Shown here piece by piece: positions 1,755 to 12,410 of a stretch of DNA of 12,477 nt. The stretch is from positions 1-12,477 of the forward strand of contig DTSJ01000180.1 in the NCBI GenBank assembly GCA_012965445.1, given 5' to 3'. A program made the translations under genes and the position numbers. The DNA comes from Candidatus Hydrogenedentota bacterium. Its GTDB lineage: Bacteria > Hydrogenedentota > Hydrogenedentia > Hydrogenedentiales > GCA-2746185. The notes beneath the pieces are model-generated. The model was not told the origin of the DNA, did no database searches, and saw only the letters and a program-made list of their open reading frames with translations. The first letter of the stretch is position 1. The number at the start of each line of letters is the position of its first letter.

Positions 1755-2942
1755 TTACTTCCAATACTTGTCGGCAAAATCCATGTACTGGCCCCAGTCG
1801 TATTCTGTGAGGTTATGTTTGCCGGAACGCATGTGGTAGGCGACGCGGTCGCCATGGACAGGCTGATCTGCCGTGGGGAAGGAAGCATCGCCGAGACCTT
1901 TGTGTCCGTATAGATTGTAGACGGGGGATGCGTGGAAACCGGAGAGGAATTCGCCTTCGGGATCGGCCCATGTGTCTTCTTGTGCGCTGCCGATGTAGAG
2001 GAGACGGGGGGCGATGAGTGCGGCGAGCATGTGCTGATCGACGGGGAGGCTTTCTTCGTTGTCGTTGAAGTTTCTGTAGTTCCGGTTGAACCAGTGGGGG
2101 AAGCCCTTGTTGATTTTTGCGATGGTTTCGCCCTGCATTCTTCGGGCGAGGGCTGCACCGGTCGAGCCGGATTCATTGCTTATGACCATCGCGAAACGGG
2201 TGTCTTCTGCTCCGGCCCAAAGGGCTGTTTTGCCGCCGCGAGAGTGTCCGATTATGCCGATTTTATCGGGGTCGATTGTGCCTTCGGACTCTATAGCATC
2301 GTAAACGAGGCTTGCGCCCCATGCCCATGCGGCGATTGTTGCCCAGGCGTCTTTGCCGCGAGATTTATCAGGATGGTCGAGCAGTCCGTGTACGCCGTTT
2401 TTGAAGCCATCGTGCTCGTCGGGGTCTACTTCGGCGTTCCAGAAGGCTACTGTGGCGTATCCGCGCCGTATGATTTCTTCTGCGGGCCAGAATGGGCTTT
2501 TGATTTTGCGGGTGGGGTCGATGTTTTCGGGATCGCGGTTGCAAATGAGGATGAAACAGGGGGTGGAGCCGGGTTGCTGATTGACGGGTATGAACAGGGA
2601 TACGTTGATCTGGATTTCGATTCCGTTGTTGTTCATGTTGATTTTGATGCTGTGGAGATCGGCGGCGCCGTCCATGACGCCTTCCGTGACTTCAACGGTC
2701 TTTGAACCGGAGTCGAGATTTTTGGAGTTCCATCCGCCTTTGGTCGAATGGGGTTTGCGTCCGTAGACGTGTTCGCGGAAAAGTTCGAGGACTTCAGGAC
2801 GACGGGCCGCTTCCCACTTGCGACTCGAGTCGATTTCGATTCCAGAGTTTGATATCAAGGGATCCGGGAGATCCAAGTCGGCTGAGAAAGCGCTCATGCT
2901 AATTGCTCCCAGACTTGTGATTGCAAGTACGAGATGTTTCAT
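1755..2942 (-). CDS. Secreted alpha/beta-hydrolase, CE15 glucuronoyl-esterase-like
   Basis: The product is 395 residues from the ATG at 2942. That start has AAGGA 8 nt upstream and gives a normal signal peptide (KHLVLAITSLGAISMSAFSA). An ATG at 2975 would add 11 hydrophilic residues before it and has only a weak AGGT. The nucleophile elbow GHSRGGK (232-238, Ser234) keeps the Ser-Arg-x-Gly-Lys arrangement of carbohydrate esterase family 15, where Arg helps form the oxyanion hole. NESG at 256-259 supplies a candidate acid (Glu257) and GKH at 374-376 the candidate catalytic His376. YGRKP (60-64) near the N-terminus is also usual for the family. CE15 enzymes cleave the ester between glucuronic acid on xylan and lignin alcohols. 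Many bacterial homologues have untested or broader substrates, so this one should be called CE15-like. It follows the selenoprotein gene and precedes the YHYH gene. No other carbohydrate-active gene is in the window. Confidence 0.88.
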   Translation of the reverse strand: MKHLVLAITSLGAISMSAFSADLDLPDPLISNSGIEIDSSRKWEAARRPEVLELFREHVYGRKPHSTKGGWNSKNLDSGSKTVEVTEGVMDGAADLHSIKINMNNNGIEIQINVSLFIPVNQQPGSTPCFILICNRDPENIDPTRKIKSPFWPAEEIIRRGYATVAFWNAEVDPDEHDGFKNGVHGLLDHPDKSRGKDAWATIAAWAWGASLVYDAIESEGTIDPDKIGIIGHSRGGKTALWAGAEDTRFAMVISNESGSTGAALARRMQGETIAKINKGFPHWFNRNYRNFNDNEESLPVDQHMLAALIAPRLLYIGSAQEDTWADPEGEFLSGFHASPVYNLYGHKGLGDASFPTADQPVHGDRVAYHMRSGKHNLTEYDWGQYMDFADKYWK

Positions 2943-2980
2943 TGCTGGTTTCCTTGACTCACTAAGATGCTTCATTGCAC

Positions 2981-3202
2981 CTATTTGTCGCGCAGTGAAG
3001 CCAGGACTTCTTCGTGCTCGGGGAAGCGTCCGACTTCCTGCTTGGAAAAAACGGGGGTACCGTCTGCTATTACGAGGAAGATGCCTCCGGCTCCGCGAAT
3101 TAATTCGGATTCGACGCTAAACTCGTCTTGTATTGCTGCAGCCAGACCGGCCGCTTTGGGTTCGTAGTTTCAAACGCCGCAGTATTCGATGGTGACCTTC
3201 AT
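2981..3202 (-). CDS. SelW-like (Rdx family) selenoprotein, UGA read as selenocysteine
   Basis: ATG at 3202 follows AGGAGG with a 5-nt spacer and opens a 73-codon frame ending in TAG at 2983-2981. The only internal stop is codon 11, TGA at 3172-3170. Reading through it gives MKVTIEYCGV-Sec-NYEPKAAGL and then a complete small protein: residues 35-52 (LIRGAGGIFLVIADGTPV) form the GxGG-F-V-DG strand pair and 54-61 give SKQEVGRF, as in bacterial SelW-like proteins. CxxU at 8-11 is the thioredoxin-like redox motif of the Rdx family; many homologues have Cys at the Sec position. Length is normal for the family and there is no signal peptide, so it should be cytoplasmic. The role is thiol-disulfide or glutathione-linked redox work; the exact substrate is not settled for bacteria. 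A SECIS hairpin follows the UGA. It lies 48 nt after apbE and 38 nt before the esterase start. Confidence 0.93.
3138..3154 (-). promoter_or_regulatory. Bacterial SECIS element inside the selenoprotein gene
   Basis: In the mRNA, 15 nt after the UGA codon, GCGGCC and GGCUGC form a 6-bp stem (one G-U pair) around the 5-nt loop GGUCU. The E. coli fdhF SECIS, recognised by the elongation factor SelB, also shows GGUCU at its apex, and the distance from the UGA to the loop falls in the normal bacterial range. The hairpin lies in the coding frame (codons for Ala-Ala-Gly-Leu-Ala-Ala). Stem and loop are read directly from the sequence; SelB binding is inferred. Confidence 0.85.
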
Positions 3203-3235
3203 TTGTTCCTCCTCATGTGATTTCGAAGTGCATAC

Positions 3236-3244
3236 ACTATACCA
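3236..3244 (-). promoter_or_regulatory. Candidate extended -10 promoter for the selenoprotein gene
   Basis: Between the apbE stop and the selenoprotein ATG the minus strand reads TGGTATAGT, an extended -10 box (TGn plus TATAGT). No convincing -35 lies 17 nt upstream, which is common for extended -10 promoters. Transcription would start near 3229 and leave a leader of about 27 nt containing the AGGAGG site. This could let the 3' genes be expressed apart from nqr. It rests on motif match alone. Confidence 0.4.
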
Positions 3245-3250
3245 TGATCT

Positions 3251-4309
3251 TCAGTTGGACTCATCTGTGACGTTTTCCTCGAGGTAGGATTCGAACGCTG
3301 GGCTTATGGCTTCGCGGAGGGTTCCGTTTTCCTCTTTGATGAGCATCAGCACGGCGAGGTTGCGGTTCTGCGCGAAGGCGAGGCCTTCTTTTTCGCCCAT
3401 CACTGTGAGCGCGGTGGCGTAGCCGTCGGCCCATTCGCATGAATCGTGGATTACGGTTACGGATAGGACGCTGTGGGAGACGGGACGACCTGTGCGGGGA
3501 TCGATGGTGTGGGAGACCTGTTTTCCGTTTGCTTCGACGTAGTTTCGGTAGGTGCCTGAGGTTGCCATGGCGCGGTCGCTCAGGGAGACGATTCGGTGAA
3601 CTTCGCGTGCTTTGGCGAGGGGTTTCTCGATTCCAATGCGCCAGGGAACGCCATCGGGGTTCGTGCCCCTGCAACGAACTTCGCCGCCGATTTCGACGAA
3701 GTAGTTTTCGACGCTTTTGGATTCGAGTACGCGGACAACTTCGTCTACGCCGTAGCCTTTTGCGATTGCGGAGAGATCGCAATAGACCTCGGGAGTGTCT
3801 TTTTGAATGGTTGAGACTGATTCGTCGAGGCTTAGGTGCTGGTAGCCTACGCGGGGACGCAGAGTTTCGAGTTCGGCTTCGGTGGGCAATTCGATCTGTA
3901 TGTCGGGGCCGAAACCGTAGGCGTTTACGACCGGGCCAACTGTGATATCGAATGCGCCGCTGGTTTCGCGGCTGAGCTGGAGTGCATCGTACATTATTTG
4001 GAAGACGTCCGTGGAGAGCTTGAAGGGATTGGTCCCGGAGGTGTTGAAGCGAGACAGTTCGGAGTCTTCGCGATAGGTGGACATGCCTGTGTTTACTTTT
4101 TCAAGGACTATTTCGATTTCTGCGCGGGTGCCGCGATCAAGGGAGGCAAGGAGCTTGACAGTGTAGGTGGTACCCATGGTTTCGCCTTGTATGACGTCCC
4201 AGGCTACGGGTGCTGGCTGGGTAAGGCGATACCAGCTGAGAGCTGTCAAAATAAAAAGTCCCACCACGAGTGCAGCGAGACGATTGCGCGTTAAGGGTTG
4301 TGATGACAC
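3251..4309 (-). CDS. apbE: FAD:protein FMN transferase
   Basis: The product is 352 residues from a GTG start at 4309. ApbE transfers FMN from FAD to the threonine of S-G-A-T sites in NqrB and NqrC through a phosphoester bond, which fits its place right after nqrF. Visible family motifs: MSTYREDSELSRFN (76-89), DLSAIAKGYGVD (178-189), GGEVRCRG (208-215), SGTYRNY (251-257), SHTIDPRTGRP (266-276) and the Mg-binding ADGYATAL (294-301). Residues 11-26 form one hydrophobic segment with no lipobox cysteine, so it appears anchored by an N-terminal helix with the catalytic part in the periplasm. Many ApbE proteins are lipoproteins instead. The GTG lies 12 nt after the nqrF stop, and the only Shine-Dalgarno-like GGAGG is within the last nqrF codons, which suggests translational coupling. 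Confidence 0.97.
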   Translation of the reverse strand: MSSQPLTRNRLAALVVGLFILTALSWYRLTQPAPVAWDVIQGETMGTTYTVKLLASLDRGTRAEIEIVLEKVNTGMSTYREDSELSRFNTSGTNPFKLSTDVFQIMYDALQLSRETSGAFDITVGPVVNAYGFGPDIQIELPTEAELETLRPRVGYQHLSLDESVSTIQKDTPEVYCDLSAIAKGYGVDEVVRVLESKSVENYFVEIGGEVRCRGTNPDGVPWRIGIEKPLAKAREVHRIVSLSDRAMATSGTYRNYVEANGKQVSHTIDPRTGRPVSHSVLSVTVIHDSCEWADGYATALTVMGEKEGLAFAQNRNLAVLMLIKEENGTLREAISPAFESYLEENVTDESN

Positions 4310-4310
4310 G

Positions 4311-4330
4311 GGAGGAGTCGATCAGCCTCC
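4311..4330 (-). promoter_or_regulatory. Hairpin at the nqrF-apbE junction covering the apbE ribosome site
   Basis: GGAGG in the last codons of nqrF (4330-4326) can pair perfectly with CCTCC (4315-4311) directly before the apbE GTG, enclosing a 10-nt loop that holds the nqrF stop codon. A ribosome ending on nqrF would melt the stem and free the GGAGG. This implies coupling of apbE translation to nqrF. The pairing is visible; the regulatory effect is inferred. Confidence 0.35.
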
Positions 4331-5557
4331 GAAATCGTCGAACATGATGTTGTCCGGTTCGACACCGAAATCGATGAGCATATTGATGACAGCGTCGTTC
4401 ATCATGGGCGGGCCGCAGATGTAGTATTCACAGTCTTCGGGCGCTTCGTGATCTTGGAGATACTCGTCGAGGAGAACCTGATGAATGAAGCCGACATAGC
4501 CGTTCCAATTGTCTTCTTCGAGGGGCTCGGACAAGGCGAGATGCCACTCGAAATTGTCGTTGTCGGCCTGAATGGAATCGAAGTGATCGATGTAAAATGC
4601 CTCGCGGAGGCTTCTGGCGCCGTACCAGAATGAGACTTTGCGTTTGCAGCCGAGTGTTTTGAACTGGTCGTATATATGAGAGCGCATGGGCGCCATTCCT
4701 GCGCCGCCGCCAATGAAGATCATTTCGTTGTCGGTATCGCGCGCGAAGAACTCGCCGAAGGGGCCTGAGATTACGACTTCGTCGCCTGGTTTGAGATTGA
4801 AGATATAGGAGGACATGATTCCCGGAGGAGTGCCTTCGGGTTCGCGGGGCGGAGGAGTCGCGATACGAACATTGAGCATAATGATGTCTGACTCGGCGGG
4901 ATAGCTGGCCATGGAATATGCACGGGTCACGGTGTCGGTGACCACAGACTCATAGCGCCAGATATTGAATTTGTCCCAATCCTCCCGATATTCCTCCTCG
5001 ACGTCCATGTCTTTGTAGACGGAAGTGTGCGGCGGGCATTCGATTTGAATATAGCCGCCTGCTTTAAAGGGGACTGCTTCGCCTTCCGGCAGCTCGAGGA
5101 TCAGTTCTTTGATGAAAGTGGCGACGTTGTGATTGGAGCGTACTTTGCATGTCCATTTGCGTACGTCGAAAATTTCGGCGGGAATTTCTATTTTCATGTC
5201 CTGCTTAACTTTGACCTGGCAGGAGAGTCGGCAACCTTCACGTGCTTCGCCGCGGTTGATGAAGCCGAGTTCGGTGGGCAGCATGGCTCCACCACCCTCG
5301 TGAACATTCACGGTGCATACACCGCAAGCGCCTTTTCCGCCGCAGGCGGAGGGAATAAAGATTTTCTTTTCGGCAAGTACGTTCAGCAAGGTATCGCCGG
5401 CTTTGACTTTGAAGGAATTGTCTGGATTGTCGTTGACGATGATGGTTACATCGCCGCTGCTGACGAGCCTGTTGCGCGCCATCATCAGCACACCGACCAG
5501 ACAGAGGATGATCGCGGTAAACATGATCATGCCCATCAAGACTGTTTCTGCTATCAT
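4322..5557 (-). CDS. nqrF: Na+-translocating NADH:quinone reductase subunit F
   Basis: The product is 411 residues, normal for NqrF. It is the NADH-oxidising entry subunit: electrons pass from NADH to FAD and then to a [2Fe-2S] centre. Residues about 5-27 form the single membrane anchor. The ferredoxin-like domain carries C72-x5-C78-x2-C81 and C113, the cluster ligands. The FAD site RAYSMASYP is at 212-220 and the NAD-binding [12 protein letters not shown] at 283-294. The C-terminal region has [11 protein letters not shown], typical of ferredoxin-NADP reductase-like domains, and ends in DDFGG. The ATG at 5557 follows AAGGA with an 8-nt spacer and lies 18 nt after the nqrE stop. All key residues are present. 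Confidence 0.98.
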
Positions 5558-5575
5558 ACTGGTCGTCCTTTTGTA

Positions 5576-6199
5576 TTAGAGTTGGATTCCGCCGAAGGCC
5601 ATGAATCCGATTGCCATCAGGCCTGTAACGATGAAAGTGATTCCGAGACCGCGGAGGCCGTCGGGTACATTGCTGTAGGTCATTTTTTCTCGAACGGCTG
5701 CCAAGAGTACGATGGCCAGTGCCCAGCCGATGCCGTTTCCGATACCGAAAACGACGCTCTCTCCGAAATTGAGGTCTCCTTCGACCATGAAGAGTGATGC
5801 TCCGAGGATAGCGCAGTTTACTGTAATAAGGGGGAGGTAAACGCCGAGGGCTACGTAGAGCTTCGGCATGAATTTATCGAGTCCCATTTCGAGCAACTGG
5901 ACTGCGGCGGCGATTACGCCGATGTAACTGATGAAGCCCAGGAACGAGAGATCGAATTTGCCGAGGGCATCGCCGAAGAAGGGTACCCATGACATGGCGC
6001 CGTCTTTGAGGAGTAGGTTGTAGACGAGGTTATTGAGCGGGACGGTGATGCCGAGTACGAAGATGACGGCGAAGCCGAGGCCGATGGCGGTTTCGACTTT
6101 TTTGGAACATGCGAGGAAGGTACACATGCCGAGAAAGAATGTGAGGGCCATATTTTCGATGAAAATGGCTTTGATCATTATGTTGATGTATTCCTGCAT
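5576..6199 (-). CDS. nqrE: Na+-translocating NADH:quinone reductase subunit E
   Basis: The product is 207 residues and strongly hydrophobic, with about six membrane helices. NqrE pairs with NqrD as an inverted-topology membrane dimer, and conserved cysteines of the two hold the intramembrane iron centre that links NqrF to NqrC. The matching cysteines are visible: Cys26 in FFLGMCTF and Cys129 in [21 protein letters not shown] near the N-terminus is typical of NqrE. RnfA is a homologue, but the full nqrABCDEF context settles the assignment. The ATG lies 3 nt after the nqrD stop, so the two are tightly coupled. Confidence 0.98.
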
Positions 6200-6202
6200 G
6201 GC

Positions 6203-6838
6203 CTATCCTTTCTCTTCGACTTGATCGGGCTTGATGGTTCGGATACCCCAGATCATGAATCCGATTATGAAGAATGCGCCTGGGGCTAAGACCATCATTC
6301 CGTTGGGGATGTACCAGCCGCCGTCGTTGACGGATTTGAAGATTACGGTTCCGAAGAGTTTGCCTGCGCCGAAGAGTTCGCGAAGGAGCGCGGTACCCAT
6401 GAGAATGAGGCTGTATCCAAGGCCGTTGCCGATGCCGTCGAGGAAACTGGGGAGAGGACCGTTTTGCATGGCGTAGCCTTCTGCGCGGCCCATGACGATA
6501 CAGTTTGTGATGATGAGTCCGACGAAAACGGAGAGGTCTTTGCTGGTATCGTAGTCGTATGCCTGTAGGAGTTGATCGGCGACGATGACGAAGGACGCGA
6601 TGATGCACATCTGGACGATGATTCGGATGCTGGAGGGGATATAGTTACGAATGAGACTCACGGACAGGCTCGAAAATGCTGTAACGAGTGTCAATGCGAT
6701 GCACATAATGAATGAAGGTTCCATCTGTGTCGTCACCGCCAACGCCGAACAGATGCCGAGGACCTGGAGTGCAATTGGATTGTTGTTCAAGAGCGGATCG
6801 AGAAGGACTTTTCGCTCTTCTTTACCTAGAACGGCCAT
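6203..6838 (-). CDS. nqrD: Na+-translocating NADH:quinone reductase subunit D
   Basis: The product is 211 residues, a polytopic inner-membrane subunit and partner of NqrE. The start [19 protein letters not shown] is characteristic. Conserved cysteines Cys30 (LGICSAL) and Cys113 ([14 protein letters not shown]) are in the positions expected for the shared iron site with NqrE. The homologue RnfE is excluded by the operon context. The ATG at 6838 overlaps the nqrC stop by one base (TAATG), a sign of translational coupling. Confidence 0.98.
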
Positions 6839-7653
6839 TATGCATCGCTCCCTTCAGTTGGTGTGCTCTCGCGGAGGGTGTCCAGATATGGGCCAAATGC
6901 CTCTTTGCCGAGCCAGAATCGTAACAGATAGGTGACGCCGTTGCTGGTCAAGGTGGCACCGGATAAACCGTCTACTTTATGGGGGGTTTCTGCTGGTGAA
7001 CCGGCGGGGCCTTTGATTACTTCGATCACTACTTTTCCAGAATCGTCAAAGGCGAGGCGACCGGGCCATTTTGCTTTCCAGTTTGGATTGTCGACTTCCG
7101 CACCGAGACCGGGCGTTTCTTTGTGTTTGTAGAATGTAAGGCCTCGAATGGTTTTGAGATCTTTGTCGAGGGCGACGAAACCGTACATAGTACCCCAGAG
7201 GCCCATTCCTTCGACGGGGAGCACATAGAGCGATGGAAGGTCGTCTTCGTCTTTGATTGTGTAGACGGTGATGTAGTTCGGGATACGGGAAACTCTTGCT
7301 CTTCCGGCATCCTTTCCGTCTGCGGCGAAGCTGGTGGAGGCACCCTTGGAGGCTTTCAACTGATTATAGGAGATCGGATCGGGTATACCGCTGTTGTCGT
7401 CGATTGCACGGGTTTCCATATTCAATACCTGAACGTCGATACGGTCTTTGAAGAGGGCGTCAACTTCTTCTGCTGAGGGAGTGCTGCCTTCGGCGGTGAG
7501 GCCGCTGACGGCGAGGACTTTTTGCTGTTTGTCGAGAAGCTTGTTTGCATCCTGGAGCGGCTTCAAGACTACTGCGGTGGAGGAGACGAAGAGAGAGCAG
7601 AAAATGCAGACTACGGCTGCGAACCCGACTATGTAACCGACGCTATTCCGCAT
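6838..7653 (-). CDS. nqrC: Na+-translocating NADH:quinone reductase subunit C
   Basis: The product is 271 residues. The start is set at ATG 7653, which follows GGGAGG by 6 nt and overlaps the nqrB end by 11 nt. A TTG at 7689 would add 12 residues but has no comparable ribosome site. One membrane helix (about residues 5-29) anchors a periplasmic FMN-binding domain. [13 protein letters not shown] (228-240) holds Thr234, the expected site of covalent FMN attachment by Apb[21 protein letters not shown] (173-192) is also typical. FMN here takes electrons from the NqrDE iron centre and passes them to the FMN of NqrB. Confidence 0.97.
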
Positions 7654-8869
7654 AGCGAGCCTCCCTGCGTTTGATGTTGGCTTCGACAATGAAGTGGTCG
7701 ATCAATGGCGCGACCATGTTCATGAACAGTATTGCGAGCATCCAGCCTTCGGGGAATGCGGGGTTGAGGGTGCGCACGAGAATTCCCATGACACCGATGC
7801 CGAGGCCATAGATGAGTTTTCCGTTGTTGGTGAAGGCGGAGGAAACGGGGTCGGTTGCCATGAATACGATGGCGAATGCATAGCCGCCGAGCACCCAGTG
7901 CCAGTAGAACGGGATCTCAAACATGGGGTTCGTTTCGGAGCCGATCACGTTCAGAAGTAGAGCCATGCCGAGGCTTCCGACCATGCAGCCTGCCATAGTG
8001 CGCCAGGAACCGACTCGGGTGGCGATCAAAATGATTGCGCCAAAAATGCAGAAGAGTGCGGATGTCTCGCCCATTGAGCCGGGGATACGTCCGATAAACG
8101 CGTCCATAAATGTAAAGCCGCTTTCGGTGATTCCATCCATACCGTCGAGGGCGCTCATGCCGAGGAGTGTTGCGCCGGAGTAGCCGTCGGCCGTAGTGGA
8201 GGCGGCTATCCAGACTTTGTCGCCGGAGAGCTGAGCTGGATATGCGAAGAAGAGGAATGCGCGCCCGGCTAGAGCGGGGTTGAGGAAGTTCATGCCTACG
8301 CCGCCGAAGACTTCTTTTGCGACGATAACGCCGAAAGCAATACCCATAGCGACCTGCCACAGGGGGGTGGTGGCGGGAAGAATGAGTGGGAACAGGGCGC
8401 TGCTAACGAGGAAGCCTTCGGTTATTTCATGGCCCCGGATAACTGCGAAAATGCCCTCGATTATGCCTCCTACGGCGATTGTCACGGCGTATATTGGGGC
8501 GAAGTGAATGAACCCGAAGAGGATGCATGAGAAGATGCTTGCAGAATTGAAATCCCAGCCGAGAAACTGGAATACGGAAGTCTGCCAGCCTGAGTGGAGA
8601 TCGGAGCCGGCTTCGATTGCGAGGAAAGCCTGATAACCGGTGTTGTACATGGCCATGAACATGCACGGGGCGAGTGCAACGACGACGGTCATCATCATGC
8701 GCTTGAGATCGAGTCCGTCGCGCACGTGGGAGGCGCCTTTGGTCACCTCGCCGGGCGTTAGCATGAAGGTGTCGCCTGCCTCGAAGAGGGGAAAGAGCTT
8801 TTCGAGCGGCTTTCCTTTGGCAAACAACATCTCGTGCTGTTTTTTCTGTAAGTTTTCGAGAAACTTCAC
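7643..8869 (-). CDS. nqrB: Na+-translocating NADH:quinone reductase subunit B
   Basis: The product is 408 residues, the main membrane subunit that carries sodium translocation, with about ten helices. The start is GTG at 8869: AAGGA lies 6 nt upstream, and the N-terminus KFLENLQKK aligns with the KKFLE start usual for NqrB. DGYSGATLLG (228-237) holds Thr234, the expected covalent FMN site. GGVGMNFLNPALAGRAFLFF (189-208) and ATDPVSSAFTNNGK (338-351) are family signatures. RnfD is a shorter homologue, and the long N-terminus and operon context support NqrB. It follows nqrA after 50 nt and overlaps nqrC. Confidence 0.98.
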   Translation of the reverse strand: MKFLENLQKKQHEMLFAKGKPLEKLFPLFEAGDTFMLTPGEVTKGASHVRDGLDLKRMMMTVVVALAPCMFMAMYNTGYQAFLAIEAGSDLHSGWQTSVFQFLGWDFNSASIFSCILFGFIHFAPIYAVTIAVGGIIEGIFAVIRGHEITEGFLVSSALFPLILPATTPLWQVAMGIAFGVIVAKEVFGGVGMNFLNPALAGRAFLFFAYPAQLSGDKVWIAASTTADGYSGATLLGMSALDGMDGITESGFTFMDAFIGRIPGSMGETSALFCIFGAIILIATRVGSWRTMAGCMVGSLGMALLLNVIGSETNPMFEIPFYWHWVLGGYAFAIVFMATDPVSSAFTNNGKLIYGLGIGVMGILVRTLNPAFPEGWMLAILFMNMVAPLIDHFIVEANIKRREARYAE

Positions 8870-8919
8870 TTACAATCCTTAACGAACATCGATTTAGAAC
8901 AGCTATGCGGGAGGACTTT

Positions 8920-10299
8920 CTATCCTTCCGATTCAATGGTGGTCAAAACATCTCGGAGATACGGTCCGTACTCGTATTTTCCGGGGCATGCAAAGGTGCA
9001 GAGCGCTAGATCTTCCTCGTCCAATTCGAGACAGCCAAGACGCTCGGCGCGTTCGACATCGCCTACGATGAGTGCGCGCAAGAGATGGGTCGCCATGAGA
9101 TCCATGGGCATGACCTGCTCGTACATTCCGATGGGGACCATCGCGCGCGCGGAACCGTTCGTCGTCGTCGTGAAATTGAACTTATGTTTGGGCATGAGTT
9201 TCGAGACGAAGGTGTTGATGAGGGAGAATTTTTCCTGGCCGGGGCCGAGCCATCCGAGAAACACGCGTTCCGTGTCTTCGGCGATGACGGAAATTTGCAG
9301 ATGGTGGCGACCGAGATAACCGTGAACATCGCCTTGTGCGCTGCGACCGGACAGTACGGAGCCTGAGATGATGCGATTTTCGCCGTCTTTTAAGCCGCCT
9401 TGGAGCAGGGCGTCTGTGGAGGCGCCGATCCGGGTGCGGACGAGTCTAGGCTGGGAGACTTGGGGACCTGCGATGGAAATGACGCGGGACACGTCCGACT
9501 TTCCGGTTGAGATAAGAGTGCCGAGGGCGATAACGTCCTGATAGTTTATTGTCCACGCGACGCGTGCGGAATGTGCGGGACGCAGAGTATGGATATGGAG
9601 TCCGGCGGTGCCTGCTGGATGGGGACCGTCGAATTTTTCGTGGGATATGCCTGCATAGGGGCCGACTTCGACAGCGGAATTTTCTGCGGTACACAAATAG
9701 ATGTGACCTTCGCGGAGCTTGGCGATCGCGGCGAGGCCTTTTTCGAATGCGGCCTGGTTCGCCTCGTAGATGACATCGACATCTGCCGCGAGGGGATTGG
9801 TGTCTATGGCTGTGATGAAAATTGAGTCGGGATCGGATTCGATGTGGGGCACTTTGCTGAATGGGCGGGTGCGGAAGGATGTCCACAGGCCGGATTCGAT
9901 GAGCAGTGCGCGGACTTCGTCGCGACTCCAGGATACGATATCTTTTTCTTTGAAACTTTTGAAGGAGACTATTTCGCTTTTTGGGGGGTCGTTTTTGAGT
10001 TCGCCTTTGGAGAGTTCGATGACGACGGACTGGAGGGCGCGTTTGTCTCCGCGATTGACTGCGGTGATTGTGCCGGCTGCAGGGGAAGTGAACTTTGTAC
10101 CAGGAGATTTTTTATCTTCGAAAAGGGGTTGCCCGCGCTTTACTTTGTCGCCGACTTTGACGAACATGGTGGGCTTCATGCCGACGTAGTCTGCGGCCAT
10201 GAGGGCGACGGAAGTGACGGCAGCGCCAGCGTGGATGACCTGCTCGGGATCACCAGTGATGGGCAGGTCCAGCCCTTTCTTGAATCTATGAACGCCCAT
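8920..10299 (-). CDS. nqrA: Na+-translocating NADH:quinone reductase subunit A
   Basis: The product is 459 residues, close to the usual length, with no membrane segments. NqrA is the cytoplasmic subunit that sits on NqrB and contributes to quinone reduction; it has no Fe-S cluster, unlike its distant relative RnfC. The N-terminus [15 protein letters not shown] is diagnostic. Residues about 45-80 form a biotin/lipoyl-like fold ([23 protein letters not shown]). No CxxCxxC ferredoxin motif is present, which separates it from RnfC. The ATG at 10299 follows AAGGAG with a 4-nt spacer. It is the first gene of the operon, so its promoter should lie in the gene-free leader to the right. Confidence 0.98.
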
Positions 10300-10888: not shown

Positions 10889-12410
10889 CTACTCGAATGA
10901 GACTGGCTCGAAGTCATAAGCAGCGGCCGTACTTGAAGAATAAGTCGTATCTTCTACTAACTCGAATTCTGTCTTGAAAAATCGATTACTGATCACCCTG
11001 AAGGTATTTGCCGGGGTTATGGCGGGATAGAGGGAAGAGTAGTCCGCGTCCGGGAACAAATAGGCGTTCAATATGCCGGAGCGCTCGTGCATGTTTGTTT
11101 TCGCGAGACTGTTCCCGACATATTGCGAACCTGGACCATGGTCTCCTTGAAGCACAATCACCGCTCCGGGATCTGATTTCCGTATTCGCTTGACCATCTC
11201 GAGTACCATCTGGTTCAAATAGTGTATTTGATTTCCGTAAGACTTCTGATACTCCTGAATGGTCATGGTTATATTGACGAGGCTGTCCGCGTCACCGATG
11301 TGGAAATTTGGATCGGCGGGTTTTGCCGGACTGCCGTCAGCATTGAAGACGAAGGGGGGTGCGGCAGGAGTATGTGCGCAAACACGAACACAGGGGAATC
11401 GTAATTCTGCGTGATCAGTGGAATTCGTTTCATCGCTTCGATCTGTCTTTCGCGATGAGTGTCAAAAGCATTTCGCAGCTGCACATCCATCAAAAATTCG
11501 TGAACAGGGGTCTGCCCGAGAAGTTTTAATTCAAACCGGTTTAAACGGCCAACGGCCGGCTTCTCGATATACTGCATACCTGCTCTGTTCGACCCGATAT
11601 AGGCAGTGCTGATACCGACAGTAGAATAACGGAGCCCGGTGAGTATCTTCGCAAACCGATTCTGGTAGTTGTACAATCTCACCCATGTTTCATTGTGGCT
11701 GTTCTTCAGGTTGTTGGTTTCGATAAATTCGTCCAGTGTGTCCATATTGAAAGTCGAGGCAAGGGAAAAGATCGTGCGGACATAGTTTGATCGGGATTCA
11801 TCGGCGATATAGAAGCCTTCGTTCCGCAGCAGATCCATAAACTTTTCTGCCGGGTATTGGTACAGTTCTTCCAGAACGTCCGCCCGACCATAGCCGTCCA
11901 GCACGATGTAGTATATATTCGGCCGTTCTACCCCTTCGGTGATTTCGACAGTCGGATTTTCCGACACGATCAGCTCTCCCTGTGAGCGGGTCTCTATCAC
12001 ATTTCGCGCTACGAGCCAGAGGGGAAATGCGAGGGCGACGCAGGCGGCAATGTTGAAGAATATCGTGGCGGAGTCCCAGTTTTTTTGCTCTTTACGACGA
12101 AATAGACGAGCCAGTTTACGAGGACTGTAATCAGGACCAGTTGTGCGGAATAGAGTGAATAGAGGTTGAAGGAGAAGAAGAGCAGGATTCCGATGGAAAT
12201 GATTGATGCTGCTTTAGCGGGATTCTTGAGAATGCGCGCCAGGGCCGCGAAACTGAGAGCGGCGACAATCAGGACGGTAATGAGGCTGCGAAGGGCTTCC
12301 GAGAACGACAGCTGCTGGATGTTGGACGCGTAGAATGATACTACTGCATGCAGTACAAAAAGCAGAGGATGTATTGGAAATCGCGCTATTGATCGAAAAA
12401 TATCCAACAC
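10889..12410 (-). pseudogene. Membrane-anchored sulfatase-like (alkaline phosphatase superfamily) protein, two frameshifts
   Basis: Three consecutive frames form one protein of about 507 residues. The first (12410-12080) has four hydrophobic segments and includes RFPIHPLLFVLH; a fifth (ATIFFNIAACVALAFPLWLVA) opens the second. The second frame (12081-about 11355) continues into RPNIYYIVLDGYGRADVL (metal-binding Asp), SRSNYVRTIFSLASTFNMD (probable nucleophile region) and FAHILLPHPP. The third, to the TAG at 10891-10889, has VLQGDHGPGS (metal-binding Asp and His). This layout, membrane helices plus a periplasmic hydrolase or transferase domain, is that of the sulfatase-type phosphotransferases such as LTA-synthase-like enzymes; the substrate is unknown. 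Each break equals one missing base: seven A at 12086-12080 where eight are needed, and six C at 11359-11354 where seven are needed. The start is taken as GTG 12410 after AGGGGA; an ATG at 12467 is possible. The 3' end faces the tRNA terminator. Confidence 0.8.

Follow-up and report, generated by a model that had tools for sequence, protein, structure and literature searches.

A probable SelW-like selenoprotein gene with a candidate SECIS hairpin beside nqr and apbE in DNA of an uncultured bacterium

The window, by which we mean the whole 12,477-nucleotide stretch of DNA analysed here, very probably carries a gene for a SelW-like (Rdx-family) selenoprotein, whose UGA at codon 11 would be read as selenocysteine (Sec) through a SECIS hairpin downstream. 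This reading draws, by sequence and comparison, on an intact reading frame, a UGA conserved among relatives, a hairpin that bears the marks of selection, and a predicted fold. The SelW-like family has been known for about two decades, and the window adds a member from an uncultured lineage; a selenoprotein of this kind would imply that the host uses selenium. The features discussed below are as follows.

2981..3202, minus strand: selW-like gene of 73 codons, ATG start, TAG stop, predicted Sec at codon 11
3170..3172, minus strand: predicted Sec-encoding UGA, codon 11, in the CxxU motif; TGA in the best 80/80 relatives
3138..3154, minus strand: predicted bacterial SECIS hairpin, stem GCGGCC/GGCUGC (6 bp), loop GGUCU, 21 nt from UGA to loop
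3208..3213, minus strand: Shine-Dalgarno sequence AGGAGG, ending 5 nt before the ATG
3251..4309, minus strand: apbE (FAD:protein FMN transferase), upstream of selW, ending in a TGA stop
4322..10299, minus strand: nqrF, E, D, C, B and A (Na+-translocating NADH:quinone reductase), context only

Reading frame, family and fold

Read on the minus strand, 3202..2981 forms one open frame interrupted by one TGA, which lies inside Cys-Gly-Val-U, and the read-through product is MKVTIEYCGVUNYEPKAAGLAAAIQDEFSVESELIRGAGGIFLVIADGTPVFSKQEVGRFPEHEEVLASLRDK; translation of the plus-strand frame of 2981..3202 yields no Rdx/SelW-like protein. The first-pass annotation had described a 73-residue protein that is whole only with the UGA taken as Sec, preceded by a strong Shine-Dalgarno sequence and intact on either side of the UGA. 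All three points stand: the minus-strand frame runs from ATG to TAG with that single TGA, AGGAGG lies 5 nt upstream of the ATG, and the match to Pfam Rdx spans residues 2-72. With Cys written for U in the profile searches, the product scores 65.8 bits against Pfam Rdx (PF10262; cut-off 22.6; E 4.2e-18) and 55.5 bits against NCBIfam TIGR02174 CXXU_selWTH (cut-off 34.2), and with both above cut-off its proposed identity as an Rdx/SelW-like CxxU protein is borne out. The equivalog NF041051 SelTWH_Campy, which describes the epsilonproteobacterial SelW, gives 87.7 bits over residues 3-70 and misses its cut-off of 88 by 0.3 bit; the phylum of the host appears to be a different one.

The structure model (Cys for Sec, 39-row alignment) has a pLDDT of 97.7 and consists of a strand at residues 3-8, the CxxU motif at 8-11, a helix at 14-28 and a small sheet, which is the layout of the thioredoxin-like SelW fold. 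Its 21 best matches in the PDB are all chains of six bacterial entries (2fa8, 2ojl, 2oka, 2obk, 3dex and 2p0g), with query TM-scores of 0.90-0.94 and identities of 27-39%, and these entries are also matched by sequence. The titles of 2fa8 and 2p0g call them selenoprotein W-related, and that of 2obk reads Se binding; in 2fa8 and 3dex, whose alignments we inspected, the position of the window's Sec is held by Cys. MIEN1 (TM-score 0.77) and mouse SelW (0.64) come after the bacterial chains. The product is most likely a thiol/selenol oxidoreductase. As far as we are aware, the bacterial SelW-like family has no established substrate.

On the mechanism that we propose, the ribosome would reach the UGA at codon 11, SelB with Sec-tRNA-Sec would bind the GGUCU-loop hairpin, which begins 15 nt downstream of the UGA, and selenocysteine would be inserted in place of termination. 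The product would be a 73-residue protein of thioredoxin-like fold, with Cys8 and Sec11, in the loop that joins strand 1 to helix 1, as a putative redox pair.

Standard annotation had been expected to fail on this gene, and it did: the database copy of the window's selW is a fragment of 54 aa, beginning at codon 20 (CTG), past the UGA. The record of a relative with 80% identity is truncated at the same point, and a single-sequence protein search with selW recovers only two proteins, both truncated, of which one is the window's own copy. Taken at face value, a database record of exactly such a 54-aa protein with a CTG start would suit the view that the UGA is a real stop, either in a decayed gene or ahead of a protein started downstream. 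We consider this very unlikely, as the frame is intact on both sides of the UGA, the codons before it match the family, all 80 kept relatives (the best 80 of at least 393) have TGA there, and the 54-aa form is without strand 1 and the CxxU motif.

The selenoprotein reading places the gene in a well-described group. The available text of Zhang 2006 (PMC1794560) lists SelW-like among the bacterial selenoproteins and remarks that Sec-using organisms have very few Cys forms of it, or none. According to the accessible part of a 2008 study of GOS ocean samples, 427 Sec-type SelW-like sequences with the motif CxxU were found there, and SelW-like was among the most abundant prokaryotic selenoprotein families, or the most abundant, in ocean samples (PMC2398784). 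For epsilonproteobacteria, the portion available of a 2015 paper describes SelW genes that annotation had overlooked, together with covariation in the SECIS (PMC4607533). The window's gene has the same CxxU motif, family and UGA as these bacterial SelW-like selenoproteins, and nothing essential differs. In the open-access literature searched, we found no paper on selenocysteine in Hydrogenedentes, and for Planctomycetes together with a SelW selenoprotein only PMC1794560; the accessible texts of PMC13188914 and PMC12013277 contain no word beginning with SelW.

Conservation of the UGA codon

Because the query used for the genome collection began downstream of the UGA, the search could not select for TGA. 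It gave at least 393 confirmed relatives (at least 593 stretches), of which the best 80 were kept, and TGA occupies the Sec codon in 80/80 of these; since the loci were found without using that codon, its conservation is beyond chance. The assembly titles of the best 80 name Planctomycetota, Acidobacteria, Deltaproteobacteria, Verrucomicrobia, Calditrichota, Zixibacteria and others. As the first-pass annotation had anticipated for SelW/Rdx families, homologues align across the UGA with TGA or Cys at the site, and its placement of Sec at the redox position of CxxU agrees with the TGA of these 80 relatives and with the Cys of the Cys-type homologues.

A profile search of the protein database found 738 relatives, of which 120 were listed; the alignment included two plasmid relatives. 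Among the 118 newly listed, 76 have a YC/FCxx motif that spans the site and 42 begin inside or after the motif. Of the 76 site-spanning proteins among the matches listed, 63 have W at the Sec site, 12 have C and one has R. We read the W, which is known from protein records, as TGA predicted under code 4. The gene illustrates a fault of annotation: many of the database relatives listed begin only after the UGA or show W at the Sec site. The single Arg (CVRR) occurs in P0099, a SelW relative of 59% identity on a 509-base contig, and perhaps reflects a TGA-to-CGA change or a sequencing error.

The predicted W in 63 of those 76 proteins could also be taken literally, with TGA a sense codon (Trp or Gly) throughout the host and the product an ordinary Rdx protein, an explanation to which we give almost no credence. 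Both apbE and nqrF end in TGA near the ends of their family profiles, nqrF being matched to the last profile position (405/405), and therefore TGA is not globally reassigned. The sequence after these two UGAs (41 nt from each) folds at only -5.6 kcal/mol for apbE and -4.2 kcal/mol for nqrF, short of the threshold of the bSECIS model described below, whereas a conserved hairpin lies downstream of the UGA in selW. TGA is accordingly a normal stop in this DNA and would be read as Sec only where the hairpin stands.

The UGA is likewise conserved in the order of genome G556, which belongs to the phylum of G003 (locus L005 is titled Planctomycetaceae). There, 122/154 genomes have selW matches, 147 in total, and 144/147 contain TGA (three contain two, and one also TAG); the remaining 3/147 are without a stop and have TGC at the site. 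Where the position of the TGA was verified in 30 loci of this order, it was found in 29/30, L107 giving no motif match; one of the 29 is also among the best 80, which leaves 28 further loci. In the phylum of G001, selW matches occur in 17/288 genomes, 6 with TGA and 11 without. Four plasmid relatives were fetched, two with TGA (Cytobacillus, beside selD, and Thermomicrobium) and two with Cys, and neither two scans of viral contigs nor phage records held a selW relative. Sec and Cys paralogues of SelW stand side by side in genomes G632, G629 and G630, in which a Cys-type SelW without the hairpin (L140, L141 and L142) is accompanied by a second, TGA copy and by SelB.

The SECIS hairpin and selection on it

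The 17 nt of the window hairpin have a fold energy of -10.9 kcal/mol. The bSECIS model, as given in the accessible text of PMC13188914, specifies a loop of 3-9 nt, a stem of 4-16 bp, a G in the first two loop positions, a distance of 16-37 nt from the UGA and an MFE at or below -7.5, and the window hairpin lies within all four constraints of that text (5 nt, 6 bp, GGUCU, 21 nt, -10.9 kcal/mol). Its stability is not unusual for its composition (z -0.5 to -1.0), and the MFE alone is not significant. The consensus that RNAalifold derives by itself is weak, at -3.2 kcal/mol, and keeps four of the six pairs (39 of 81 sequences). The SECIS of E. coli fdhF resembles the window hairpin in its GGUC-type apical loop and in how far that loop lies from the UGA; its stem sequence differs from that of the window.

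Codon choice is more telling. Across the window and the best 80 of at least 393 relatives, the loop codon U+8 encodes Ser as AGT in 49/49 cases, compared with 7/217 elsewhere in the same genes, and Gly as GGT in 30/32, compared with 77/543 elsewhere (Fisher tests, 2e-46 for Ser and 1e-21 for Gly, with shared ancestry ignored). In the same 81 sequences codons U+6 and U+10 both encode alanine in 81/81, which leaves their third bases unconstrained by the protein; these third bases nevertheless form a standard pair in 81/81. The pair is C-G in 65, U-A in 7, G-U in 4, G-C in 3 and U-G in 2 (n=81, the best 80 of at least 393 plus the window), the window itself having the rare G-U form, and in 20,000 permutations of the U+6/U+10 pairing, which ignore shared ancestry, the number of pairs averaged 62.6 and never exceeded 71. 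This codon choice is strong evidence, on the sequence level, for a SECIS element. The AGT that always encodes the loop Ser, together with the paired third bases of the alanines, provides a simple test between Sec and stop for which no host genome is needed.

Counted from the outside in, the six stem pairs are formed in 55, 80, 81, 64, 81 and 81 of the 81 sequences (again the window with the best 80 of at least 393), so that 38/81 have all six, 42 have five and 1 has four. The covariation score is 0.266 against a shuffled mean of 0.077, a value reached by 0/500 shuffles (39 of 81 sequences), and with the partner strand shifted by 1 to 3 columns it drops to 0.007-0.111. Two pairs show a two-sided change, a number matched by 150/500 shuffles and hence not unusual (39 of 81 sequences). 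In the 28 further loci from the order of G556, the U+6/U+10 pair is present in 27/28, mostly as G-C and with one mismatch, and the loop codon is AGT or GGT in 28/28. From these comparisons the hairpin is evidently under selection at the RNA level.

The Cys homologues bear on the possibility that an error of sequencing or assembly turned a Cys codon (TGC or TGT) into the window's TGA, which their existence (12/76 among the matches listed) would favour. In this register, three Cys homologues from the order of G556 form 1, 2 and 2 of the 6 pairs, and five Cys-type relatives at greater distance form 1 to 4 of 6; the hairpin is present in the window but unformed in these eight Cys-type loci, and TGA stands at the same codon in all 80 of the kept loci (best 80 of at least 393), so we regard an error of this kind as exceedingly improbable. 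The scoring of the Cys-type set left out L143, L107, L104, L138, L090, L092, L094 and L096, which gave no motif match; L104 and L138 are nqr/apbE loci, and L108 gave one spurious hit. L087 and L091, both TGA-type selW, have a variant hairpin, with loops CGUGU and CGGGU and all six pairs formed.

Genomic context and selenocysteine machinery

The gene selW lies 48 bp downstream of apbE, in the order nqrA-F, apbE, selW on one strand, and in this it differs from the known SelW-like genes, as the context is not seen in the best 80 relatives. When nine window proteins were searched by tblastn (E up to 1e-15), not one of the nine turned up in the best 80 selW loci, 53 of which have at least 3 kb on both sides. 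A search of 56 loci for a recurrent selW neighbour (ORFs of at least 90 codons, clusters of at least 4 loci) found none; it returned two clusters only, which from their place and letters we take to be frames antisense to selW. The neighbourhood offers no hint to the function of selW. It seems very improbable, though worth stating, that in this lineage the selenoprotein is built into an nqr-apbE operon and would serve Na+-NQR, for example by keeping ApbE/NQR thiols reduced during flavin attachment, with rare read-through of the apbE UGA fusing ApbE to SelW. No stop separates the TGA of apbE from the selW ATG, which shares its frame (3203-3253, minus strand), and read-through there would give a fusion.

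Of the window's other proteins, NqrF has its best identity, 73%, in G556 among 294 genomes of the phylum of G003; in the phylum of G001 (288 genomes; L016 is titled Verrucomicrobiia) it reaches 66%. Verrucomicrobiota, considered as the phylum of the host, was set aside on this comparison. The 120 NqrA relatives listed run from 88% downward, and those with an organism name (five Candidatus Hydrogenedent-, one Acidobacteriota and one 'bacterium') are at 60-67%; the best identity of ApbE is about 45-46%, too low to help in placing the host. Tentatively, the host is probably an uncultured bacterium from the neighbourhood of Hydrogenedentota and Planctomycetota.

The only tRNA in the window is a tRNA-His, and the case for a Sec pathway in the host rests on the window's SECIS together with SelB and tRNA-Sec in related genomes. 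SelB scores above cut-off in 139/154 genomes of the order of G556, compared with 2/14 control genomes. By a cross-count made by eye within this order, SelB is present in 110/122 genomes with a selW match and in 29/32 without one, and of the 15 genomes where SelB is missing, 12 have a TGA selW. In this order the occurrence of one gene does not follow that of the other, a mismatch that incomplete assemblies would explain. In 20 genomes with TGA selW, chosen by hand from those of the best 80 loci, 14/20 have a tRNA-Sec match of at least 63.7 bits, the next best being 53.5. We used this gap in the scores because the family cut-off of 47, passed in 16/20 of the selW genomes, was also passed by 5/14 controls. 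From these data we infer that Sec is probably inserted in this host and that SelB would bind the hairpin.

Two further pairs of ORFs in the window deserve mention. The adjacent ORFs at 11269-12000 (minus strand, no Pfam match) and 10889-11266 (minus strand, sub-threshold Sulfatase match, 7.8e-4) look like one sulfatase-like gene, 10889-12000, split by a frameshift or by faulty assembly. Overlapping ORFs are listed at 821-2176 and 1755-2975 (minus strand) for a YHYH-domain gene and a glucuronoyl-esterase-like gene, and the YHYH gene probably has its true start deeper inside its ORF.
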